Virus record (IMG/VR): IMGVR_UViG_3300001450_000050
Location: 1-45,722 of that record
Reading direction: 5' to 3' (one strand)
DNA from: a virus
DNA: 45,722 bases
Part shown: positions 1,922 through 44,919 of the stretch, in pieces
Layout: each line of letters begins with the position of its first letter
How positions within the stretch are numbered: the first letter of the stretch is position 1
The notes under the pieces: generated by a model
Seen by the model: only the letters and a program-made list of their open reading frames with translations
Databases searched by the model: none
Told to the model about the DNA's origin: nothing
Position numbers and translations under genes: made by a program

Positions 1922-2880
1922 GCAGCTACCTCAAGAAAGTTTTCAAAAGCCTCAGAGTTTATCCATTTACTGACACTTTGTTGACGCTTAAACAGTGTAT
2001 CAGGTCCAGAGTTTTTACGCAAGTTAAACCTACCATCCCCATGACTACCATAGTGGGTCATAGCAGATACTAAAGAGAATACATTGCTGCCTCGTTCATG
2101 TGTCTCATCTATATATTGAGCAAACAATCTATCAGATAAAGTATTTTTCTTTTTAGGTTCGTCGGTACTACCACTCGTTAGAGTACGAAATAACTCTTGG
2201 ACTTTCATAGTATTATTTATCCCTTGGTCAGCCCACTTCTGATACTTATCAACCATCCAACCATGACGGGCAATAGCACTATCAAATGCACTAAGGAAGC
2301 CATCGACACTAAAGTTTTTAGTATGACGTTTCTTTGTTACATCATATTCACCACTGATCATACCATTGGTGCAGAAGAAGTCAATAACACCACCATAGAA
2401 CACAACACTTGACGATCCATCAAAGGTATTTTTTAGAATAAATCTAAGTCCAACCTCTGTTTTATGTCCTGTTTTTGTTTCAACAGTACCTTTCATTTTA
2501 GGTAAAATGTATTCCGCAAAGCATACAGAACCATTTTTAGCAATGTGATCTTTTATTTGAATGTCTGCTAAAACAGAGGGATCAAAGTGATTAACCATCT
2601 GCTCTTGCATTGGCATAATAATCTCTTCATTTTCTACCACACGATAGTTTTTGTTAACTATCGATAAACATTCTTCTGGTTGCAAGGGTGGGGTGCCACG
2701 GGAAAGCATCTTGTACTTCTCTGCTACAGTTCCTGTAGAATGTCCAGAAACTTGTTGCTCATTTACTTTAAAAAAGATAGATCGATTATTAGTGGTGGTG
2801 AGGTGATCTAACATATTATACCCTTTTTGAGCAAGTGAAGCGGCGAAAGATGATGTAGAAAATCTATTGGTATCAAACAT
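1918..2880 (-). CDS. DUF932-like phage/plasmid protein, 320 aa
   Basis: A 320-residue protein with the look of the DUF932 (phage/plasmid-like, TIGR03299-type) family: a central region RFILKNTFDGSSSVVFYG followed by FFCTNGM, corresponding to the usual N-x-x-D-G-S ... C-x-N-x-M strand pair. The family is common in early regions of phages and plasmids and has no firmly assigned activity. The length is near the usual size. GTATCTCC-type spacing is not obvious, but AGGAGACTAAA (read on the minus strand) precedes the ATG. It probably heads a coupled pair with the proline-rich lipoprotein. Confidence 0.7.
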   Translation of the reverse strand: MFDTNRFSTSSFAASLAQKGYNMLDHLTTTNNRSIFFKVNEQQVSGHSTGTVAEKYKMLSRGTPPLQPEECLSIVNKNYRVVENEEIIMPMQEQMVNHFDPSVLADIQIKDHIAKNGSVCFAEYILPKMKGTVETKTGHKTEVGLRFILKNTFDGSSSVVFYGGVIDFFCTNGMISGEYDVTKKRHTKNFSVDGFLSAFDSAIARHGWMVDKYQKWADQGINNTMKVQELFRTLTSGSTDEPKKKNTLSDRLFAQYIDETHERGSNVFSLVSAMTHYGSHGDGRFNLRKNSGPDTLFKRQQSVSKWINSEAFENFLEVAA

Positions 2881-2903
2881 TTTAGTCTCCTAGTTTAAGT
2901 TAT

Positions 2904-3152
2904 TTATTCTGCATCTAAGAGATAACATAGGTTTTCATCTCTTTCTGATGCCATTGTAGTTAAGTAAAATTTCATAGCTTTCTCAAGGTGTTCTGCTCTG
3001 TTTTGTAACTTTTTAATTTTAACATCTTGTTCGATATCGTCTACCACCCCTTTTACTCCAGCGGTAGCACCAGCCGATAATAGAACTATAGGCGGAGCGG
3101 CACATCCTCCAAGAAAAGCAGCGCATAGTATAATTAATATTTTATATTTCAT
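2904..3152 (-). CDS. small coiled-coil lipoprotein, 82 aa
   Basis: Start set at MKYKILIILCAAFLGG, the ATG nine bases after GGAG; longer starts overlap the upstream gene further. The signal ends in the lipobox LGGC, giving a lipidated Cys. The mature chain has a short hydrophobic stretch (PPIVLLSAGATAGV) and then a charged helix likely to form a coiled coil (DIEQDVKIKKLQNRAEHLEKAMKF, described here in parts). It could be an envelope effector or an outer spanin; neither can be decided by sequence alone. Confidence 0.6.
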   Translation of the reverse strand: MKYKILIILCAAFLGGCAAPPIVLLSAGATAGVKGVVDDIEQDVKIKKLQNRAEHLEKAMKFYLTTMASERDENLCYLLDAE

Positions 3153-3324
3153 TTTCATCTTCTCCAAATATTTCTTTCCAGTATTCTTCTATGTCTAGAC
3201 GGCTGGCCGGATTGTAGCCAGCTTCTAGCATATCCATTCGGATGTCATCTTCCATAGTCCAGCGACCTTGTTTTTGTCTGACATCTTTTCTAATTAATAC
3301 AAAGTCGTAGACTGAAATAGACAT
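3142..3324 (-). CDS. hypothetical protein, 60 aa
   Basis: A 60-residue acidic product beginning MSISVYDFVLIRK with a helical C terminus (IEEYWKEIFGEDENEI). It starts inside TAATG shared with the stop of the preceding gene and ends 11 bases inside the lipoprotein gene, so it is locked into a coupled chain. Family not recognised. Confidence 0.55.
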   Translation of the reverse strand: MSISVYDFVLIRKDVRQKQGRWTMEDDIRMDMLEAGYNPASRLDIEEYWKEIFGEDENEI

Positions 3325-3521
3325 TAGTCTACTACTATAATCTCGGAAGGAGCTAGGTCTATATTATCTAAATTTTCTTTATTATCTATAAAGAAAGTAA
3401 TTTCTCCGCCGTCACCTTCCTCCGTTACAAAACGGACAGAGACTGTTGTAAAATCCTGATGATTTCTTTGCGTTGTATTAATAGACTTAACATCATGTTG
3501 CATTATGGTAGTTAAAGACAT
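3324..3521 (-). CDS. hypothetical protein, 65 aa
   Basis: Start chosen at MSLTTIMQHDVKSI because GGAG lies eight bases upstream; the longer frame would begin inside a palindromic repeat. The product appears to be a small beta protein (TTVSVRFVTEEGDGGEITFF). A similar M-x-L-T-T-I-x-x-H-D-V start occurs in early genes of other phages as I remember it, without a function. One-base overlap with the next gene. Confidence 0.6.
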   Translation of the reverse strand: MSLTTIMQHDVKSINTTQRNHQDFTTVSVRFVTEEGDGGEITFFIDNKENLDNIDLAPSEIIVVD

Positions 3522-3554
3522 TGTATTCACTCCAATGTGGTTGAGATACTTTAT

Positions 3555-3602
3555 ATTAATCATTCTAAGTATCGTAAGATAACTCTACTTAGAATAATTA
3601 AT
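3555..3602. repeat. intergenic palindrome, copy 1
   Basis: Two 17-base arms (3555-3571 and 3586-3602) are complementary except for one position, with the inner 10 bp (ATTCTAAGTA/TACTTAGAAT) perfect. The 14-base loop TCGTAAGATAACTC resembles the loops of copies 2 and 3. It lies at the junction between two minus-strand small genes, the same position taken by the other copies. Confidence 0.75.
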
Positions 3603-3707
3603 ATTGGTTAACAGGGTATTCGAAGTGCTAAAGATCATATCGAAATATAATATACCTGCTCCTAAAAGAAAAGTTAAAAGTGTAGCTTTTATAATTACAT
3701 TTATCAT
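3585..3707 (-). CDS. tiny membrane protein, 40 aa
   Basis: A 40-residue frame, MINVIIKATLLTFLLGAGIL at its N terminus, which is one membrane helix followed by YFDMIFSTSN. It is preceded by GGAATATAAAACTATG, the same 16 bases (start codon included) found before the next upstream gene. The stop codon lies in the first arm of palindrome copy 1. Function unknown; single-span peptides of this size are common in phage early regions. Confidence 0.5.
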   Translation of the reverse strand: MINVIIKATLLTFLLGAGILYFDMIFSTSNTLLTNINYSK

Positions 3708-3736
3708 AGTTTTATATTCCCTTTAAAAGTATGTGG

Positions 3737-3883
3737 TTACATGTTACCGGGGCGAAATTCCGTTTCGTTTTGAATGGATAATTCAGCGTCATTGTTTTCC
3801 ATATATTCCCTAGCCTCTAAAACTGTTTTAAAATCCATGTAGAACATGACTTCTCTCAGTTCTAATTCGGTATATTTTGTCAT
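3737..3883 (-). CDS. small acidic protein, 48 aa
   Basis: A 48-residue frame (MTKYTELELREVMFYMDF...TEFRPGNM), helical and acidic. Its ribosome site and start codon form GGAATATAAAACTATG, identical to the leader of the 40-aa gene downstream. A 15-codon frame with an AAGGA site (3896-3943) ends just ahead of it and could be a leader peptide, but is too short to call. Family unknown. Confidence 0.5.
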   Translation of the reverse strand: MTKYTELELREVMFYMDFKTVLEAREYMENNDAELSIQNETEFRPGNM

Positions 3884-3963
3884 AGTTTTATATTCCTAAC
3901 AAGAAACAACAGTAATAATATAAGCAGGATTTAATTTAACCATAATTTTTCCTTATTAAAGCA

Positions 3964-4665
3964 TTAGTGATCAAGAAAAGTAATAGGTTTTTTAGTAGTC
4001 CAGCACAGTGTACAGTCACCACAACTATCACTCTTATCTACTTGTACTAGACAAGTAATAGCATTAGCTGTCGAGTTGTGTTCTGTATTGGCCGATAAGG
4101 TATCGGAAGGCAGAGAGCTAAATCGTACAGCAAATCTTTCAAAGCCTATGTTATCCCTCAGATCAAGCAAAGCTTGTCCAATATTTCTTGATGGTTTGCT
4201 GGTATTAGTAGAGCCATAGTGATGACGGGAATATCCATAGATATTTAAAGCCGGTCTATTATGTAGCTGGGTTTCCCAAAACTTTACATATAGAACACTG
4301 TAAAAGTCCCCTAGAATGTGCAGCCTAACAAGGTATCCATTGGGATGCTTTTTATCTAAAGCATCAAGCTCTAACTTGAGCCTTGGCATTAGTCCTTTAG
4401 TTTTAAATCTATGACCGAATGGCATATTGTTCCCATAGCAATCAGCCCAATGCTCACAAGCATTAGTGCAAGTCTCTCTTTCCACTAAAGTCAATGTATA
4501 CATTGGATAGCCGTTTAGTTTACCTCGTAATACTTTTCGGCCAAGCTTCTTATTGGTGCTTGCTTTAATAACTTTATGTGGATAACTATCAACTTCATGT
4601 ATATTTTTCTGGTACAAAGTAGTGCTATTAACAATAGCATTATGGTCTGGGGATAGTGTGGACAT
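3964..4665 (-). CDS. GP88-like Cys-rich phage protein
   Basis: A 233-residue protein with cysteine clusters ETCTNACEHWADCYG near residues 64-76 and DSCGDCTLCW near the C terminus, plus a central VRLHILGDFYS. This order (Cys cluster, R-x-H-x-x-G-D-F, C-terminal C-x-x-C-x-x-C) matches the phage gene product 88 family as I know it, found in mycobacteriophages and many environmental phages. The cysteines suggest a metal or Fe-S site. The biochemical role is not established. It is expressed with the early block and followed by no close partner. Confidence 0.7.
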   Translation of the reverse strand: MSTLSPDHNAIVNSTTLYQKNIHEVDSYPHKVIKASTNKKLGRKVLRGKLNGYPMYTLTLVERETCTNACEHWADCYGNNMPFGHRFKTKGLMPRLKLELDALDKKHPNGYLVRLHILGDFYSVLYVKFWETQLHNRPALNIYGYSRHHYGSTNTSKPSRNIGQALLDLRDNIGFERFAVRFSSLPSDTLSANTEHNSTANAITCLVQVDKSDSCGDCTLCWTTKKPITFLDH

Positions 4666-4667
4666 GC

Positions 4668-4835
4668 TTAATTATCCTTATCTAGAAAGTTATTAACTTC
4701 ATCTTGTCCATATTGTTCAAACATTTTACCTAAGAATACATGGCTCTGCTCACCATTAATGATGTACTGTCCCCAACCATTTGCGGGACTATTTAAAGCC
4801 TTCACATATTTTTCCGCATCTTTCTCTAAACTCAT
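4668..4835 (-). CDS. hypothetical protein, 55 aa
   Basis: Frame MSLEKDAEKYVKALNSPANG with a final EQYGQDEVNNFLDKDN helix. GGAG lies eight bases before the ATG. The gene ends two bases before the start of the GP88-like gene, so the two are probably translated together. No family recognised. Confidence 0.6.
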   Translation of the reverse strand: MSLEKDAEKYVKALNSPANGWGQYIINGEQSHVFLGKMFEQYGQDEVNNFLDKDN

Positions 4836-4889
4836 TTTTAAACTCCATTTAAAAAGTATTCAGATATTGAGTGTATGCCTAGCGTAACC

Positions 4890-4979
4890 CTAAAGTTTTT
4901 TAATATCTTTGTATAGTATATATGCTATTCCCACGAATACAATAAATAGTATTGTCGATACCACAATTGGGAAAGTCAT
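4890..4979 (-). CDS. single-span membrane peptide, 29 aa
   Basis: A 29-residue frame (MTFPIVVSTILFIVFVGIAY plus a basic tail YKDIKKL) that is almost entirely one membrane helix with positive-inside charge at its end. AGGAG lies 11 bases upstream of the ATG and the previous gene stops four bases away, which supports real translation despite the size. Confidence 0.45.
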   Translation of the reverse strand: MTFPIVVSTILFIVFVGIAYILYKDIKKL

Positions 4980-4983
4980 AATA

Positions 4984-5139
4984 TTATTTACTCCTATTTA
5001 TTAACTCTTTGATTATTTTATTAAAGCTAGGATGTTCCCTGTTTTTGACTGCTAGATTACGAACTAGCCAACGAATATTCTCCGGTTTACTTAAATCTCT
5101 ACGATTTAAGGGTACGTTCATATCATCTGGAATAGTCAT
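4984..5139 (-). CDS. small basic protein, 51 aa
   Basis: Frame MTIPDDMNVPLNRRDLSKPE followed by NIRWLVRNLAVKNREHPSF; GGAG is six bases before the ATG in the leader GGAGATTATTATG, nearly identical to that of the 72-aa gene upstream. Basic and helical. A sequence such as N-I-R-W-L-x-R-N-L suggests a compact helical domain. Function unknown. Confidence 0.55.
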   Translation of the reverse strand: MTIPDDMNVPLNRRDLSKPENIRWLVRNLAVKNREHPSFNKIIKELINRSK

Positions 5140-5175
5140 AATAATCTCCATTAATCAAGTTATTAATGTCTCAGA

Positions 5176-5226
5176 TAATTAATCATCCCCTAGTATCCTT
5201 ATAGTCTACTAGGGGATTATTAATTA
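5176..5226. repeat. intergenic palindrome, copy 2
   Basis: Arms 5176-5195 and 5207-5226 pair over 20 bases with one mismatch (a C facing what would be A). The outer part is TAATTAATCATC/GATTATTAATTA and the inner stem CCCCTAGTA/TACTAGGGG. The 11-base loop is TCCTTATAGTC. It separates two minus-strand genes and begins just after the stop of the upstream one. Confidence 0.8.
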
Positions 5227-5233
5227 CCCGAGG

Positions 5234-5452
5234 TTAGGCTACCGCCTCGACTTCCCCAGCTTTAAATCTAAGACCTTCTTCCTTCGGAAGGTTCTCGGTG
5301 TTCTTTATAACTTTAAAAGAACCGGAAGGGTGAACTACTCGGATTGGTAGGCCGTCTTCGACGGCTTGTTTATAAACTTCATAGCCTTCTTTCAACTTAA
5401 CCCAACGGGTTTTGCGGAAAGCTTGGGTAATCTTCTCGGTACGTTTTGCCAT
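5234..5452 (-). CDS. small basic protein, 72 aa
   Basis: Frame MAKRTEKITQAFRKTRWVKL, ending FKAGEVEAVA, with a good GGAG site in the leader GGAGATTATCATG. The N terminus is strongly basic and could bind nucleic acid; the rest resembles a short beta unit (LPIRVVHPSGSFKVIKN). It is bracketed by palindrome copies 2 and 3. It is relatively GC-rich compared with its neighbours. Confidence 0.6.
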   Translation of the reverse strand: MAKRTEKITQAFRKTRWVKLKEGYEVYKQAVEDGLPIRVVHPSGSFKVIKNTENLPKEEGLRFKAGEVEAVA

Positions 5453-5487
5453 GATAATCTCCTATCGGTTGGCGGTTGGTTAAAAGA

Positions 5488-5540
5488 TAATTAATAATAT
5501 TCTGGTATCCTAAGATAGTCTACCAGAATATATTTAATTA
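5488..5540. repeat. intergenic palindrome, copy 3
   Basis: Arms 5488-5507 and 5521-5540 pair over 20 bases with two mismatches; the inner 11 bp (ATATTCTGGTA/TACCAGAATAT) are perfect. The loop TCCTAAGATAGTC is close to that of copy 2. The inner stem differs from copy 2 yet keeps pairing. Confidence 0.8.
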
Positions 5541-5543
5541 CCC

Positions 5544-5717
5544 TTACAGTTTGTGACTTAGCATTTCAACTTCGATGCCGAGTTTCTGTATAGTTCTCAT
5601 ATTGGCAGGTGTTAACGTCTTTTGATTTGTAAGCTCTGTTAAGAGCTTTGATTTGTCACAAGCTGGATAGTAACGGTACTGACCATAGTCAGAACGCATA
5701 TTCATTTGGATTTTCAT
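5544..5717 (-). CDS. hypothetical protein, 57 aa
   Basis: Frame MKIQMNMRSDYGQYRYYPAC, then DKSKLLTELTNQKTLTPANM. A GGAAAATGATT leader precedes the ATG. The C-terminal half (TPANMRTIQKLGIEVEMLSHKL) looks helical. The stop lies four bases from palindrome copy 3, and palindrome copy 4 precedes the gene. Family unknown. Confidence 0.6.
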   Translation of the reverse strand: MKIQMNMRSDYGQYRYYPACDKSKLLTELTNQKTLTPANMRTIQKLGIEVEMLSHKL

Positions 5718-5735
5718 AATCATTTTCCAGTTATT

Positions 5736-5787
5736 TAATTAATCATCTACTGCTTTCAAAGAAAGCTAAGTAGTAGATTATTAATTA
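5736..5787. repeat. intergenic palindrome, copy 4
   Basis: Outer arms 5736-5751 and 5772-5787 pair over 16 bases with one mismatch at the same place as in copy 2. The interior holds a second perfect stem, GCTTTC-AAA-GAAAGC. One end overlaps the stop codon of the 55-aa gene. Confidence 0.75.
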
Positions 5788-5952
5788 GTTTTGACGGATG
5801 GCAGATAGAAAATACTCAGCTTCACATAGATCATCACAAGTTGTGATGTGGTCTCCGGTAATTGTATTGTGGAGGTCATAACCTCCATTGAAGGAAGATA
5901 CTTCCATGTCTAGCTCGGAGAAATAGAAATTGAGGGATTGAATATTGGTCAT
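5785..5952 (-). CDS. hypothetical protein, 55 aa
   Basis: Frame MTNIQSLNFYFSELDMEVSS with a TTCDDLCEAEYFLSAIRQN end. GGAG is seven bases before the ATG. It is the first complete gene of the left minus-strand block as transcription leaves the control region, so it is likely among the earliest expressed. Acidic; no family recognised. Confidence 0.6.
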   Translation of the reverse strand: MTNIQSLNFYFSELDMEVSSFNGGYDLHNTITGDHITTCDDLCEAEYFLSAIRQN

Positions 5953-5973
5953 CAGGTTGCTCCAATTAAGTTT

Positions 5974-6025
5974 TAATTAATCATCTAGCTAGTTCGTAAG
6001 AACTCACTAGATAGATTATTAATTA
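5974..6025. repeat. intergenic palindrome, copy 5
   Basis: Outer arms TAATTAATCATC and GATTATTAATTA as in copies 2 and 4. The inner stem, CTAGTTC-GTAA-GAACT with a small bulge before CTAGAT, is different again but still folds. It lies upstream of the first early gene, in its probable leader RNA. Confidence 0.7.
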
Positions 6026-6045
6026 GTTTCATCATAGACTGTCAA
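6017..6045 (-). promoter_or_regulatory. candidate early promoter, minus strand
   Basis: On the minus strand a perfect TTGACA (complement of 6040-6045) is followed 17 bases later by TTAATA, or at 18 bases by TAATAA, both poor -10 boxes. It would transcribe the leader containing palindrome copy 5 and the early block. An alternative is TTGGTA-N18-TATATA (complement of 6387-6416). Neither is certain. Confidence 0.3.
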
Positions 6046-6135
6046 GAACTTCATCAAAGTTTATTCGAATCTCATCAGTTGTTGCATTACTGCAACAGTC
6101 AGGGTTTGGTAGTTAGTCGGTTGATATCTAATATT

Positions 6136-6182
6136 ATTTTTTATCTTTAGAGATCACTTTGATCTCTCTAAATATAAAAAAT
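6136..6182. repeat. long imperfect palindrome in control region
   Basis: Arms 6136-6156 and 6160-6182 pair through about 20 positions with a two-base bulge; the inner AGAGATCA-CTT-TGATCTCT is perfect. It resembles the intergenic palindromes in size but lacks their TAATTAATCATC ends. A 12-base perfect palindrome ACCTTGCAAGGT follows at 6186-6197. Confidence 0.65.
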
Positions 6183-6218
6183 AAAACCTTGCAAGGTGAT
6201 ATTTCTTTTTATCTCCAA

Positions 6219-6256
6219 AGATTCTGTAAGAATCTTCATAGATTCTGTAAGAATCT
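6219..6256. repeat. two tandem 21-bp-spaced dyads
   Basis: AGATTCT-GTA-AGAATCT occurs at 6219-6235 and again at 6240-6256. The period of 21 bp is two helical turns, so both dyads face the same side of the helix, as expected for paired operator sites of a dimeric repressor or for iteron-like origin sites. Confidence 0.7.
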
Positions 6257-6319
6257 TCCTGGATGTGATGTATATGTCACATATTCGCATGGGGGTGTTG
6301 CAGATATGTCACATGTCTT

Positions 6320-6343
6320 TAAATAATCTATAGAGATTATTTA
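6320..6343. repeat. perfect 10-bp inverted repeat with TAGAGAT core
   Basis: TAAATAATCT (6320-6329) and AGATTATTTA (6334-6343) pair perfectly around ATAG. The core ATCTATAGAGAT recurs in altered form at the promoter and before terL. Confidence 0.65.
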
Positions 6344-6484
6344 ATATACGACCCCCCACCAAAAAAATTGACTCAGCTATATAATATATATACCCCTCCC
6401 CCCATATACTTACCAAAAATAAGAGGGTCATTTCATCTATATAAAATTATGATGATTTAAACCTAATTATTTTAGGCGGGAGCC

Positions 6485-6513
6485 TTGACAGAATCTATAT
6501 ACTCCTGTATAAT
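6485..6513 (+). promoter_or_regulatory. consensus sigma-70 promoter for late operon
   Basis: TTGACA at 6485-6490 and TATAAT at 6508-6513 are both perfect consensus hexamers with the optimal 17-base spacer. Transcription would start near 6520 and enter terL. Such a strong host-type promoter suggests expression by host RNA polymerase, held in check by a repressor (see the overlapping palindrome). Confidence 0.85.
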
Positions 6514-6527
6514 AATCTCTAGAGATT
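6514..6527. promoter_or_regulatory. palindrome at transcription start, operator candidate
   Basis: AATCTCT-AGAGATT is a perfect 14-bp palindrome that begins at the base after the -10 box and spans the expected start site. A protein bound here would block open-complex formation. Its core matches the dyads at 6326-6337 and 6619-6645. Confidence 0.55.
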
Positions 6528-6539
6528 CGAACAAACAGT

Positions 6540-6610
6540 TATTAGTTATTATTATCGTTTATTATTAATAATTGTTATAATGTTTATTATTAATAATAAT
6601 TTTTAAAAGG
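6540..6610. repeat. AT-rich block with repeated GTTTATTATTAATAAT
   Basis: Nearly pure A/T sequence in the terL leader containing GTTTATTATTAATAAT twice and the perfect palindrome TTATTATTAATAATAA. It could be a DNA-unwinding element or simply an untranslated leader. Confidence 0.5.
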
Positions 6611-6618
6611 TTTTATGT

Positions 6619-6645
6619 TATCTCTATAGAGACTCTATAGAGATA
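6619..6645. repeat. 12-bp perfect inverted repeat before terL
   Basis: TATCTCTATAGA (6619-6630) and TCTATAGAGATA (6634-6645) flank GAC. It is 13 bases before the terL ATG. In RNA it would form a stable hairpin next to the ribosome site; in DNA it offers two TAGAGAT-type half sites. Confidence 0.7.
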
Positions 6646-6658
6646 CTAAAGAGTATCT

Positions 6659-8224
6659 ATGGAGATTAATGAAGAATACATAAAGGATCAAGAAAATCCT
6701 GTAAATACATTGATGACATTAAGTACATTAATGGATGATCTTGTTTTAAAGGAATCACAGGATAGCTTTTTGTCCTTTGTCCGTATGGTTGCTCCTACTC
6801 TTGTGTCTGATTGGAAGATGGGTAGACACATAAAGCTACTTTCTGATAAACTTCAGAGAGTAAAGGACGGAGAGATTAAAAGACTTATGATCTTTCTTCC
6901 TCCTCGCTCTTCCAAGTCTGTCATATGCTCCAAGATATTCCCAGCATGGTATATAGGTAATAATCCTACACATGAGATTATGTCTATATCTCATAGTGAT
7001 CAGTTAGCTAGTGACTTTGGTAGATCAGTTCGAGATGTAGTAAACACTGATCAGTTTCAAAATATATTTCCTAATGTTCAAATACGGCAGGATGTACGGG
7101 CGGCAGGTAAATGGAAAACAAATCTTAATGGAACCTACTATGCTGCTGGTGTTAGATCACAGATTGCGGGACGAGGAGCACATATAGCAATACTAGATGA
7201 TGCTATGTCAGAGGAAGATAGTTTCTCTGAAGCGGGTAGGCGGTATATTAAGGAATGGTATCCTGCAGGTTTGCGTACTCGTATCATGCCTAACGGGTCT
7301 ATTGTAATTGTGAATACCCGATACCACCATGATGATCTTTGTGGTTGGTTATTAAAACAACAAGAAGTAATGGATATGGAAGCCACTCATAAATGGGAGG
7401 TAGTTCGTATTCCTGCATGGATAGATGAAGAAGCATCAAAGCTTCTGGACTTACCTGTAGGAAGTTCTTACTTTCCTGAGTGGAAACCTGATGAAGTATT
7501 ACGAGTTGATGAAGAAGAGATCATTGCAAGTAATGGGTCAAGGTACTGGGATTCATTGTATATGCAGAATCCTACACCAGAAGAAGGTGGAATAATAAAA
7601 AAGAGATGGATACAAAGATGGGAATATGATGATCCTCCCACCTGTGACTTTGTTATTCAAACATTAGATACAGCCTTCTCGACAAAGAGTAGTGCTGACT
7701 TCTCCGTTATTCAAACATGGGGTATCTTTCAGATGCCCGAAGAAAGCTACGAAGGAGAAGAGTATATTGCTAGTAATCTTATTCTACTAGGAAATACCAG
7801 AGGAAGATTTGAATATCCTGATCTCCGAAAGATAGCTCAAAATCTACATGAAGAGTATAGACCTGATATTTGTATTGTGGAAAAGAAAGCTAGTGGTCAA
7901 TCACTGATACAAGATTTACGACGAGGTGGTTTGCCTATTCTAGAGTACACACCAGATAGAGACAAGGTAGCTAGAGTATACGCAGCAACTCCGGTGTTAG
8001 AAGCGGGACGCTTGTGGATACCGAAGAATAAAAAATGGGCAGATGATCTGATTGAAGAACTACTAAGTTTTCCTAACGGTAGACATGATGATCAGGTAGA
8101 TGCTTTAGCTATGGCTGTGCATTACATGAAAGAGTCATGGCATCTAACTCATCCAGATGATCCTAGCTGGGAAGATGATGTAAATCCCCGTAGACAAAAG
8201 AAAGTTGCATACTGGAGAGTTTAG
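6659..8224 (+). CDS. terL: terminase large subunit
   Basis: This 521-residue ATPase/nuclease cuts and pumps DNA into the prohead. Walker A is LPPRSSKS at residues 80-87, Walker B is HIAILDD at 175-181, and a coupling motif NTRYHHDD follows near 219-226. The nuclease half carries DTAF (D337), VEKK (E408) and HDDQVDALA (D477, D481), the expected RNase H-like acidic set. Length is normal. The ATG at 6659 has only a weak AAAGAG site just after a strong hairpin; a later start would still leave both domains. It heads the late operon. Its small-subunit partner is far away at 41106 on the other strand. Confidence 0.95.
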   Translation: MEINEEYIKDQENPVNTLMTLSTLMDDLVLKESQDSFLSFVRMVAPTLVSDWKMGRHIKLLSDKLQRVKDGEIKRLMIFLPPRSSKSVICSKIFPAWYIGNNPTHEIMSISHSDQLASDFGRSVRDVVNTDQFQNIFPNVQIRQDVRAAGKWKTNLNGTYYAAGVRSQIAGRGAHIAILDDAMSEEDSFSEAGRRYIKEWYPAGLRTRIMPNGSIVIVNTRYHHDDLCGWLLKQQEVMDMEATHKWEVVRIPAWIDEEASKLLDLPVGSSYFPEWKPDEVLRVDEEEIIASNGSRYWDSLYMQNPTPEEGGIIKKRWIQRWEYDDPPTCDFVIQTLDTAFSTKSSADFSVIQTWGIFQMPEESYEGEEYIASNLILLGNTRGRFEYPDLRKIAQNLHEEYRPDICIVEKKASGQSLIQDLRRGGLPILEYTPDRDKVARVYAATPVLEAGRLWIPKNKKWADDLIEELLSFPNGRHDDQVDALAMAVHYMKESWHLTHPDDPSWEDDVNPRRQKKVAYWRV

Positions 8225-41105: not shown

Positions 41106-41513
41106 CTAGTCGAATTTACAGCGTTTAACCATATCTTCTACTTGTTCCTTTCCAAGAACCTCAAAGGTTGAAACAATAAGAGTAATCAACTCTTCTTTAC
41201 TAACATTCTTTCCATCTTCAACTTTATTACCTCTGACTCTAGATAAAAGTTCTAGAGCTTTGATGGCGCTGTTCACATGACCATTGGTTTTAGCAAAGGT
41301 ATATTGATCTTCAATCTCAGCTACAACATCCACACTAGTTTTTAATTCTCTAGATAGCTCTTCTATTCTTTCTACGATAAAGTCATTTTGTAATAAACGA
41401 TAGCCTTGATTGTAAGCTGACCTATCAGAATACCCTGCACTCTTTGCTGCATCAGTAGCATTATTATTTAGTACATATGACTGTGCAAACTTCTCTTGCT
41501 TTTCTGTTAGCAT
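41106..41513 (-). CDS. terS: terminase small subunit
   Basis: The 135-residue product matches the Terminase_2 family: LTEKQEKFAQSYVLNNNATDAAKSAGYSDRSAYNQGYRLL (in parts) is the helix-turn-helix that recognises the packaging site, followed by the oligomerisation helices (IVERIEELSRELKTSVDV). It should form a ring and hand DNA to TerL. Unusually it is in the minus-strand block, about 33 kb from terL at the map level. It overlaps the preceding gene's stop by one base. Confidence 0.85.
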   Translation of the reverse strand: MLTEKQEKFAQSYVLNNNATDAAKSAGYSDRSAYNQGYRLLQNDFIVERIEELSRELKTSVDVVAEIEDQYTFAKTNGHVNSAIKALELLSRVRGNKVEDGKNVSKEELITLIVSTFEVLGKEQVEDMVKRCKFD

Positions 41514-43837
41514 TATAAAGAAAGAACCTCTTTGTATGTGCGTAACTTATGAGTATCAGATATTTCCCAGAGCTTAGAAACAAGTGTACCAGTTCCATGA
41601 AAGTTTATACTAAGGTTTACATCTTCCTTCTCGAATAACTTCTCGCAGTCTTGTGCCATTGCCAGGAGTTCTCCGGTAGTCCAGAAGCTCTCATTCCCTA
41701 CACCTACCTTTAGATACTTTGGCTTACCCTCATCCGTTGTTTCTTTCTGTTCTTTTTTAGAAGGTTCAGGAAAGGAACAGTCATATCCAAAGAGATGGAA
41801 CTCTCTAAAGCCTAGAGTATGCATGATGCCAATTGATCGCATGGCTGCACAAGTACCACCGATAATCATCGTAGCTCCTTCTTTGATACCTAACTTCTCG
41901 TCAATTTTTACGGCATCGTTCTTAACTTGATCTTTAATATTTTCTTGTAGTGCGTTGGTATATGCATGCCACCCTACAATGTTTTTTGTTTTCTTTCGCA
42001 GTAAGTCTATAACAGAAGGATCAGTCATAGATGCTGCCATAAATAAAGTACTATCATCAATCTTTTTAAACAAATCTTTTCGGACAACTCCATGAGTACT
42101 TGTTCCTGTAATTGGACGAGGGTCTAGAATGACACATCCAAAAGGTTTAATGTCATTTTTCAATAACTCTGGATAAGAATGCTTAACACAAATAACTTTA
42201 GCTCTTTTCTTTCCGACCTTTCTAATTGTACGTTTTACCTCTTTCCAATCAGTGCTGCCTCCACCAGAAATAATAATAGCAACTTCTGAATGAGGCTTTG
42301 CTTTTGTAACCCATGTATCAATAACAGAAGTATTCTTTTTAACATTTTTAAGAATGTCTTCTTTAGGCATACAATCTCTAGGCTGTACAATAATAGGTGA
42401 TCGGCCAAGAGTTTCTGGAATATCTTCAAGGGTATCATCCGTTAGAACTACAGCTAGGTGAGTGATACCTCCTTCGATAATTCTATCAGCAGATGGTAAC
42501 ACTTTCTTTCGGTGATCAATCTTTTCGATCAGTTTATTAACACCATAAAATTCTTTGCCTGGATCATTTCCTTTTTCATCTTTGGAAATATAATCATCGA
42601 AGACAACAACCTTACTTTCTTTTAACATCTCATAATCATGGGTTACAGTTTCTTCAGAGTGACCCCCATCGATGTAAGCAAAGTCAACTTTCTTTTCTTG
42701 AAGTGTATCTTTTGTATCTCCCTTAAACAATTCGAAGTTAAACTTACGACCAGCATTTTTACAGTTCTCTTGATACTCTTTAAGTCTTGCGTTTACTGCA
42801 GCGAAAAAATTATGTTGTTTGCTGTTCAGTTCTTTCTCATCGATCTCTGTGGTAGCATCCTCAAAGAGATCATAACCATAATAAGTTACTTCATATGAAG
42901 ATTTAAATGCAGCCTCTGACATTTGAATAGCTCGACCACCGTTCCATGTACCTGTTTCAGCAATAGTACTAGGTTGGTAAAGCTCTACTAATTCAATTAA
43001 CTTAGCATATCTTTGAGGTCCATTAACATCTGGGGCTACGCCTTGAGAAGAAGCTTTCTTTCTACTACCTTTAAAATGTTTTACATAACTACTAAGAGGA
43101 AATAAATCAAAGGCTTGTTCACCTTTTACTTGTGACTTTATATCTTTTGATCCGGTCCAATCATGGAACTTTAAGCCATGAGCTTTATAGATAATTAAAA
43201 GTCGTTCAAACAGAAACCCGTCATGCCATTCTCTATAATTAAAAACTTCTCCTGTTAGATAAGCGCCAATAAAGTCACCAATAAATTCTAGAGCTGTGTC
43301 GCTATTTAAATTAAAACCAATAAAAGAAGTTTCACTATAGGTAAAATGTTTTCTTCCTAGATGTACTAGATTAACTTTCTCTGGTAAGGATTTAAGAAGG
43401 GCTTTCTTTGATAGATTTTTTTCTGTAACCGTATCAGCATCCATCCATACTAACCAGCCAGGATCATGATCACCCTCTGCCTCGTCACTATCGCTCTTTA
43501 AATTAAACGCACAGTCAGCAATAGCAAATACTTTATGACTAAACTTAATACCATCCATACGCCAGTTATAACCCTGACTATCCTTACCTGTACCATTAAA
43601 ATCTTTGTAGGTATTTCTGAATTGGTGTAGTTCTTCTAGATCATTTAAATTTCTAAACTCAATATGGTCACACTCTGGTATGTCTTTAGAATTAATATCA
43701 AAGTCATGGTAGTAAGCAACAAGCTTGATGGACGGTTCCCAATATTTTGCAGCAGACTTAATCATTCTCTCGGCATAGGTTTCCCAGCCATCCTCCGAAA
43801 AGGATGTTACCACCGTCACTTTATTTTTGTTACTCAT
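41513..43837 (-). CDS. glycosyltransferase-methyltransferase-DUF115-like fusion
   Basis: A 774-residue protein with three parts. Residues 1-260: glycosyltransferase-like, with WMDADT (DxD at 133-135) and a WHDGFLF segment. Residues 275-470: class I methyltransferase-like (IAETGTWNGGRAIQMSEAA as the SAM-binding loop, YYGYDLFED, FAYIDGGHSEETVTHDYEML, VVFDDY), like Methyltransf_24 proteins. Residues 515-700: DUF115/MptE-like (AIIISGGGSTDWKEV, CVILDPRP, MIIGGTCAAMRSIG, FHLFGYDCSFPE). Such sets act in surface glycan or flagellin-sugar modification. It overlaps the second glycosyltransferase by eight bases. Confidence 0.75.
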   Translation of the reverse strand: MSNKNKVTVVTSFSEDGWETYAERMIKSAAKYWEPSIKLVAYYHDFDINSKDIPECDHIEFRNLNDLEELHQFRNTYKDFNGTGKDSQGYNWRMDGIKFSHKVFAIADCAFNLKSDSDEAEGDHDPGWLVWMDADTVTEKNLSKKALLKSLPEKVNLVHLGRKHFTYSETSFIGFNLNSDTALEFIGDFIGAYLTGEVFNYREWHDGFLFERLLIIYKAHGLKFHDWTGSKDIKSQVKGEQAFDLFPLSSYVKHFKGSRKKASSQGVAPDVNGPQRYAKLIELVELYQPSTIAETGTWNGGRAIQMSEAAFKSSYEVTYYGYDLFEDATTEIDEKELNSKQHNFFAAVNARLKEYQENCKNAGRKFNFELFKGDTKDTLQEKKVDFAYIDGGHSEETVTHDYEMLKESKVVVFDDYISKDEKGNDPGKEFYGVNKLIEKIDHRKKVLPSADRIIEGGITHLAVVLTDDTLEDIPETLGRSPIIVQPRDCMPKEDILKNVKKNTSVIDTWVTKAKPHSEVAIIISGGGSTDWKEVKRTIRKVGKKRAKVICVKHSYPELLKNDIKPFGCVILDPRPITGTSTHGVVRKDLFKKIDDSTLFMAASMTDPSVIDLLRKKTKNIVGWHAYTNALQENIKDQVKNDAVKIDEKLGIKEGATMIIGGTCAAMRSIGIMHTLGFREFHLFGYDCSFPEPSKKEQKETTDEGKPKYLKVGVGNESFWTTGELLAMAQDCEKLFEKEDVNLSINFHGTGTLVSKLWEISDTHKLRTYKEVLSL

Positions 43838-44842: not shown

Positions 44843-44919
44843 TGGCACTCTCGGCAGGACTCGAACCTGCAACCTACAGATTAGAAATCTGTTGCTCTGT
44901 CCAGTTGAGCTACGAGAGT
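44843..44919 (-). tRNA. tRNA-Arg(TCT)
   Basis: The cloverleaf is complete: acceptor ACTCTCG/CGAGAGT (7 bp), D arm with AGCTCAACTGGACAGAGC, anticodon stem ACAGA/TCTGT with loop TTTCTAA (anticodon TCT), T arm GCAGG-TTCGAGT-CCTGC, discriminator G and an encoded CCA. It reads AGA codons, which the phage genes here use often for arginine. It lies right after the ribonucleotide reductase gene. Confidence 0.95.

Follow-up and report, generated by a model that had tools for sequence, protein, structure and literature searches.

The early transcript of phage T7 carries RNase III hairpins of 50–60 nt between early genes, and the promoter early stem-loops (PeSLs) of T4-type phages combine promoter and terminator. 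One of the T7 sites, R1.1, has an asymmetric 4/5-nt internal loop (PMC6121014). PeSLs are intergenic and lie among early genes, and recombination between them shuffles genes (PMC4503421). In cluster K mycobacteriophages, extended start-associated sequences (ESAS) are imperfect inverted repeats with a variable spacer that occur many times per genome upstream of small non-structural genes; their consensus varies by subcluster, and their function is reported as unknown (PMC3203893, PMC12699233). For the bacterium Clostridium cellulolyticum, selective RNA processing and stabilisation at intergenic stem-loops is proposed to tune dosage within one operon (PMC4423207). Here, we compare with these systems a family of hairpins found between the genes of uncultured phages, starting from five palindromes in 45,722 nucleotides of viral DNA (the window: bases 1–45,722 of the 54,422-base virus record IMGVR_UViG_3300001450_000050). 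Our first choice, tentative and with a little less than an even chance of being right, is that they are cis-acting RNA hairpins of a single family, situated in leaders or intercistronically and putatively processed or protein-bound.

An earlier note, made from the letters of the window alone, had listed five intergenic palindromes, and all five were found, all on the minus strand, which codes for a set of small leftward genes. Its coordinates held for 5176–5226, 5488–5540, 5736–5787 and 5974–6025; the remaining copy, given as 3555–3602, is corrected to 3553–3604. Five such palindromes are far beyond chance. On the minus strand each folded better than all its 200 dinucleotide shuffles (z from −4.8 to −7.8), and a hairpin scan of 3300–6100 returned four hairpins with a score of at least 12, all among the five palindromes, copy 5488 scoring lower because of two adjacent mismatches. 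The 200 shuffles of the same interval had a mean hairpin count of 0.01, a maximum of 1 and a top score of 15, and none held four. The palindromes separate consecutive small minus-strand genes, as had been proposed, except that 5974 and 3553 have no adjoining upstream open reading frame (ORF) end and that 3553 stands apart from the remaining copies. The shared ends and single mismatch ascribed to most copies are, in their exact form (TAATTAATCATC...GATTATTAATTA with a C:T mismatch), common to three of the five; at the same position copy 5488 has two mismatches, and the pair in copy 3553 is a G.U in the transcript. A TCCT..ATAGTC-like loop, reported for three copies, was found in two (5176 and 5488), and the inner stems are complementary as described, apart from one mismatch in 5974. 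The hairpins, the small ORFs that follow them and a sixth copy in the same record are as follows.

5974–6025, minus strand: hairpin 1, in the leader before the first small gene; the same 52 nt occur in loci L005, L006, L007, L088, L090 and L093
5785–5952, minus strand: small ORF after hairpin 1, 55 aa
5736–5787, minus strand: hairpin 2, with an AGC-type tip; gene 5785–5952 has its stop codon in the first three bases of this hairpin
5544–5723, minus strand: small ORF after hairpin 2, 59 aa in the ORF list, not selected by the start rule
5488–5540, minus strand: hairpin 3, starting 4 nt past the stop codon of gene 5544–5723
5234–5452, minus strand: small ORF after hairpin 3, 72 aa; in other phages, its homologues likewise follow family hairpins
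5176–5226, minus strand: hairpin 4, starting 8 nt past the stop codon of gene 5234–5452
4984–5139, minus strand: small ORF after hairpin 4, 51 aa from a Shine-Dalgarno start (longest ORF 4984–5151, 55 aa)
3553–3604, minus strand: hairpin 5, the most divergent copy, with the G.U at the defect position
3324–3521, minus strand: small ORF after hairpin 5, 65 aa from a Shine-Dalgarno start (the longest ORF, 3324–3563, enters the hairpin)
53100–53149 of the 54,422-base record, outside the window: sixth copy, preceding a T7-type primase-helicase gene

To collect the family, the shared-ends pattern was searched in IMG/VR, yielding 17 stretches (12 distinct sequences in one orientation), and a model built from 14 sequences (R1) was run over 97 sources, which gave 175 rows at E ≤ 1, many sites on both strands; 47 distinct hairpins were written out. 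A second model (R2) was built from 43 oriented sequences, including four that a plain hairpin scan had supplied. It returned 81 rows in the surroundings of relatives of the primase-helicase and of another early protein, and 58 when run on loci from the earlier rounds. A second pattern, restricted to outer ends, bulge and loop, matched 54 stretches, and R2 on 27 of those loci returned 92 rows. Removed from the lists were the lower-scoring strand per site, loci repeating a contig already included (such as L084, L085, L087, L092, L100–L104 in large part), the near-identical loci L005 and L090, and L039, L189 and the weak match L073 (E 0.26). Altogether, the family comprises 117 distinct sequences and 186 copies including relatives, from uncultured phage contigs: a working set of 105 copies (76 distinct sequences) plus 81 copies (41 further distinct sequences). 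The contigs are often related, some pieces overlap and the distinct sequences are related by descent, so all counts given here are of non-independent events. Further copies between genes of related phages, which the earlier note had proposed to look for, are thus present. Across the whole 54,422-base record, R2 had 10 matches at E ≤ 0.05, all at the six sites and at four of them on both strands, and none in the rightward half, where the genes for terminase, portal and head proteins lie.

Read on the transcript, the hairpin has about 8 bp, one helix defect, 10–12 bp, a purine bulge usually ending in AG, and a short stem with its loop, most commonly C(UUAC)G or C(UAC)G. Lengths are 47–55 with a single exception of 40, and most copies have the ends UAAUUA...UAAUUA, CUAUU...AAUAG and CAAUUA...UAAUUG being among the paired variants. 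Among the first 76 distinct sequences, the lower stem measured 7–9 bp in 66, the defect was present in 73 and the middle stem had 10 or 11 bp in 57; among the later 41, the defect, mostly a one-base bulge, was present in 36, and the middle stem spanned 9–14 bp, most often 11. The non-Watson-Crick cells at positions 7–11 were A.G (28), U.G (15), A.A (12), G.A (5), U.U (4), G.U (2), A.C (1) and C.U (1), plus one-base bulges. The purine bulge lies on the 5′ side above the middle stem. A bulge-region motif occurred in 111 of the 117 distinct sequences and the loop set C(UUAC, UUGC, UAAC, UAC, UGC)G in 90, while 14 belong to a class with a different tip (AGC), to which all six copies read in record G004 also belong. 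At 2468–3259 of L188, near-identical AGC-class hairpins precede successive small genes.

A tip that is conserved above variable stems would suit a binding protein equally well, judging from the sequences, and the hairpin ends close to ribosome-binding sites. The element may therefore be a site where a phage or host protein reads bulge and loop (e.g., a translational repressor or an antitermination factor) and no cleavage follows. We regard this as possible but doubtful, as the strict 20-bp stem and a defect distant from the tip exceed the needs of a tip reader, the AGC class carries another tip, and no candidate binding protein turned up, although no systematic search for one was made. The loop also recalls the hairpin promoters of phage N4, which are read by a virion RNA polymerase: on the template strand, 50 of the 76 distinct copies show C(GNA or GNNA)G, a loop type that favours small DNA hairpins. 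Promoters of this type are very improbable here. The N4 promoter hairpins are much shorter, the family hairpin exceeding them several times in length, and the idea was dropped since no RNA polymerase match was found among the proteins scanned, a subset of the ORFs that included a 1,408-aa protein.

The letters of the stems change while their pairing stays. The covariation claimed earlier was real: in the first 14 sequences, from which the tested structure had itself been drawn, 11 of the 21 pairs changed on both sides, 95.5% of the cells paired (slid controls, 19–53%) and 0 of 500 shuffles reached the covariation score. Stems in relatives, where a loss of pairing had been suggested as a check, keep Watson-Crick pairing as well. 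Outside the defect zone, the 117 sequences contained 1,547 Watson-Crick cells, no G.U, 1 A.C and 16 others, with 13 A.C cells of the AGC class set aside because there the bulge was aligned as a pair. A small control of 16 tRNAs had 110 Watson-Crick and 2 G.U acceptor pairs; at this rate (2 in 112) about 28 G.U would be expected outside the zone vs 0 observed. Inside the zone, G.U outnumbered A.C by 20 to 1, some of these G.U events being repeated by related sequences, and an early tally over 50 sequences that did not separate the zone counted 5 G.U and 7 A.C. G.U seems to act as a defect that is tolerated at one place and absent elsewhere, and its bias over A.C in the zone argues that the transcript is read and not its complement.

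Between near-identical hairpins, 108 pair changes were of transversion type and 53 of transition type (the pairs are not independent), the 2:1 ratio expected if G.U steps are unused. This points either to strict selection for perfect pairing or to occasional copying from arm to arm; copying alone is disfavoured because the defect is kept. The alternatives offered in the earlier note, RNA or cruciform, can be weighted: the transcript is favoured by the orientation of the copies, by where they lie and by the G.U bias at the defect, and strict Watson-Crick pairing together with the swapping of copies shows a DNA-level history too.

All copies of one contig piece share a strand (19 pieces, then 28 of 28 later pieces), and the hairpins are read on the coding strand of early and replication genes. 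An upstream stop was defined as the end of an open frame of at least 35 codons that lies no more than 38 nt before the hairpin or 15 nt inside it. Of the 105 working-set copies, 76 have one; it fell within the hairpin's first 8 nt in 38, and in 25 copies the hairpin's own first UAA was that stop. Downstream, a start codon with a Shine-Dalgarno sequence followed in 89 of the 105, at 2–50 nt (79 of these at 12–40 nt). Promoter-like sites, matching at least 10 of 12 positions, lay upstream of or overlapped 20 of 155 non-redundant sites, lists in which near relatives recur, compared with 1.4% of random 75-nt windows. As the second hexamer ends before the hairpin in 11 of these 20, the hairpin would there form part of the transcribed leader.

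The sites, together with the gene shuffling described below, could also be read as terminators or as PeSL-like cassettes of promoter and terminator, yet we hold this to be distinctly unlikely. Even with the sites that have a promoter-like sequence downstream, 28 of the 155 have one nearby, more than the 1.4% of random windows, and at least 127 do not. The partial terminators considered in the earlier note are not a first choice in the form of intrinsic terminators, as a terminator scan of the window's 2800–6700 found no site at any palindrome, and copies standing right behind promoters (11 of the 155 sites follow a promoter-like site) would shut genes off. In the same interval promoter-like sites were at shuffle level (18 vs 17.4). 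One of the window's promoter-like sites, at 6485–6513 on the plus strand upstream of the terminase gene, agrees with the sigma-70 consensus at all 12 positions, its spacer being 17 nt long. A further long hairpin at 6134–6184, between the leftward and rightward genes, has 20-nt arms that are 95% complementary and lacks the family ends and tip.

Copies of the hairpin have changed neighbours. The 52 nt of 5974–6025, mismatch included, stand before another gene family in L088 and L093, and L088 holds two identical copies whose flanks are unrelated. L007 and the window have a common copy with differing neighbours; in L086, L097, L091 and L094 a common copy agrees on its upstream side and differs between pairs on its downstream side. 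For copies in non-homologous contexts on 21 contigs, likeness was 0.706 within a genome (268 pairs) vs 0.604 between genomes (5,775 pairs), and 1,000 label shuffles reached at most 0.629. Identical copies beside unrelated genes and the greater likeness within genomes indicate that the hairpins spread by recombination too. Of 80 relatives of the primase-helicase, 13 had a family hairpin immediately upstream, which implies that copies are gained or lost; two others had unrelated hairpins. The phage encodes a Gp2.5-like annealing protein, a Cas4-type exonuclease and a RusA-like resolvase, which would serve recombination at short repeats. In L089, the gene at 6313–6579, which precedes the second hairpin, has at its end a stretch similar to part of a family hairpin and encodes a longer protein than its L093 relative does, as if a decayed copy had turned coding.

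Such exchange, along with the near-absence of G.U, the free transversions and the recombination genes, would also fit short palindromic linkers that act as DNA and spread or persist by promoting cassette recombination, or selfish repeats, with RNA folding as a by-product. Ends of homology blocks coincided with hairpins in 39 and 51 of 162 cases, where 13–14% would be expected, but this excess is inflated by the mutual likeness of the hairpins and by kinship among the contigs. We consider a pure DNA element unlikely: most copies keep the defect, which copying between arms would erase, and both the excess of G.U over A.C at the defect and the fixed orientation favour the transcript.

The family was not found among named phages. 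BLAST searches with an 81-base hairpin query returned 34 records, in short pieces only and none at a coverage of at least 80% (E 2–8 among the matches listed), a 52-base query returned no match, and a near-identity search with the first 12 kb of the window returned none either. The nearest isolates, all marine, are the pelagiphages HTVC115P, HTVC103P and HTVC104P by primase (46–48%) and HTVC023P by terminase (39%). At E ≤ 2, R2 had no match in CRP-171, scanned whole, or in the first 45–50 kb of HTVC115P, HTVC103P, HTVC023P and DSL-LC04. Among 13 records scanned whole, 10 had a match at E ≤ 0.05 and three did not. Cellular genomes contained 15 stretches with the end pattern, the tip motif being seen in none, and these were taken as unrelated palindromes. 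Four 52-nt palindromes of Prevotella veroralis (L195, L201, L206 and L207) with the ends TAATTAATTATC...GATAATTAATTA constitute a separate repeat, unrelated to the phage family. Rfam 15 gave no match at gathering score for the hairpins, its sole family at that score in the window being a tRNA; for 3400–6200 at E ≤ 1, three microRNA matches had 21–23 bits against thresholds of 87–90, two of them over palindromes. The earlier remark that no such family is described therefore stands as far as Rfam thresholds and the open-licence literature go, which is no proof of absence.

Elsewhere in the window, the minus strand carries a tRNA gene beside a ribonucleotide reductase sequence (44846–44919) and a gene for a 774-aa protein with a methyltransferase domain and an MptE-like domain (41513–43837). 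IMGVR_UViG_3300025168_000039 (L004/L084), with 106,894 bases about twice as long as the 54-kb record, has the same hairpins and a 100% identical terminase, and is possibly a joined assembly.

Returning to the cis-acting RNA hairpin, a near-perfect helix of about 20 bp with two irregularities 10–12 bp apart, placed between stop codon and ribosome-binding site, could suit a site of the RNase III type, T7 R1.1 serving as the model. The hairpin in a long transcript would be cut by the host RNase III or a similar enzyme, which the two irregularities might place, or its tip would be bound by a protein. Each small gene would gain its own structured 5′ leader and the preceding gene a structured 3′ end, so that stability and dosage could be set gene by gene. 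Linkers of one kind stand beside neighbouring genes, so that recombination between them might add, drop or replace a gene and leave expression intact. Several observations weigh against this picture. The defect is absent in 8 of the 117 distinct sequences, and 27 lack the counted loop set. The second hexamer of the promoter-like sequence lies inside the hairpin in 9 of the 20 cases, and 8 of the 155 sites have a promoter-like site at most 75 nt downstream, neither of which a pure leader role explains. Near-absent G.U and the twofold excess of transversions differ from what ordinary RNA drift by way of G.U leaves behind, and suggest some DNA-level cause. Finally, the three records and five isolates without a copy at the thresholds applied indicate that the element is dispensable in the wider group.

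A bolder proposal, which we think rather unlikely, is a categorically new class of phage element. It would be an intercistronic RNA part of standard, interchangeable make, recognised by its shape and tip and not by its stem letters, that supplies early genes with structured leaders of one kind, doubles as recombination linker so that genes can be swapped plug-and-play, and is read by a dedicated phage or host factor. Early regions of phages gain and lose small genes fast, which raises the question of how a new arrival is expressed at once; a linker that is both structured RNA leader and shared recombination joint would, if true, give a direct and testable answer. The strict rule of shape, with one placed defect and no G.U elsewhere, makes a sharp prediction for the enzyme or protein that would read the hairpin.

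On its sequence features, we file the family among the phage intercistronic regulatory hairpins, its membership of the T7-type sites or of the PeSLs being at most conjectural. Its likeness to the RNase III sites of T7 lies in an intercistronic hairpin of 50–60 nt whose helix is irregular and which belongs to a long early transcript, although transcription is here presumed and cleavage putative. Where R1.1 has its internal loop, the family keeps a defect of one position and, close to the tip, a bulge; and unlike the T7 sites, its copies are many per genome, recognisably of one family, and exchanged. The ESAS resemble the family as imperfect inverted repeats, many per genome, that stand ahead of small genes. 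They are 17-bp repeats tied to a 13-bp start sequence, GGGATAGGAGCCC, with conserved letters, whereas in our family shape and tip persist under changing stem letters; GGGATAGGAGCCC was not seen in the sequences inspected after hairpins (no separate search was made), and the repeat ends differ. With the stem-loops of C. cellulolyticum, the family has the proposed effect on gene dosage in common, but those belong to a bacterial operon and are not a repeated, exchangeable phage element. PeSLs differ in that a strong promoter of the sigma-70 type is not part of the family unit (a promoter-like site accompanies at most 28 of the 155 sites), that the window's hairpins show no intrinsic-terminator match, and that they belong to another phage group. 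The likeness lies in the exchange itself: as with PeSLs, recombination between family copies shuffles genes, which is seen in identical copies with unrelated flanks and in the likeness of copies within a genome.

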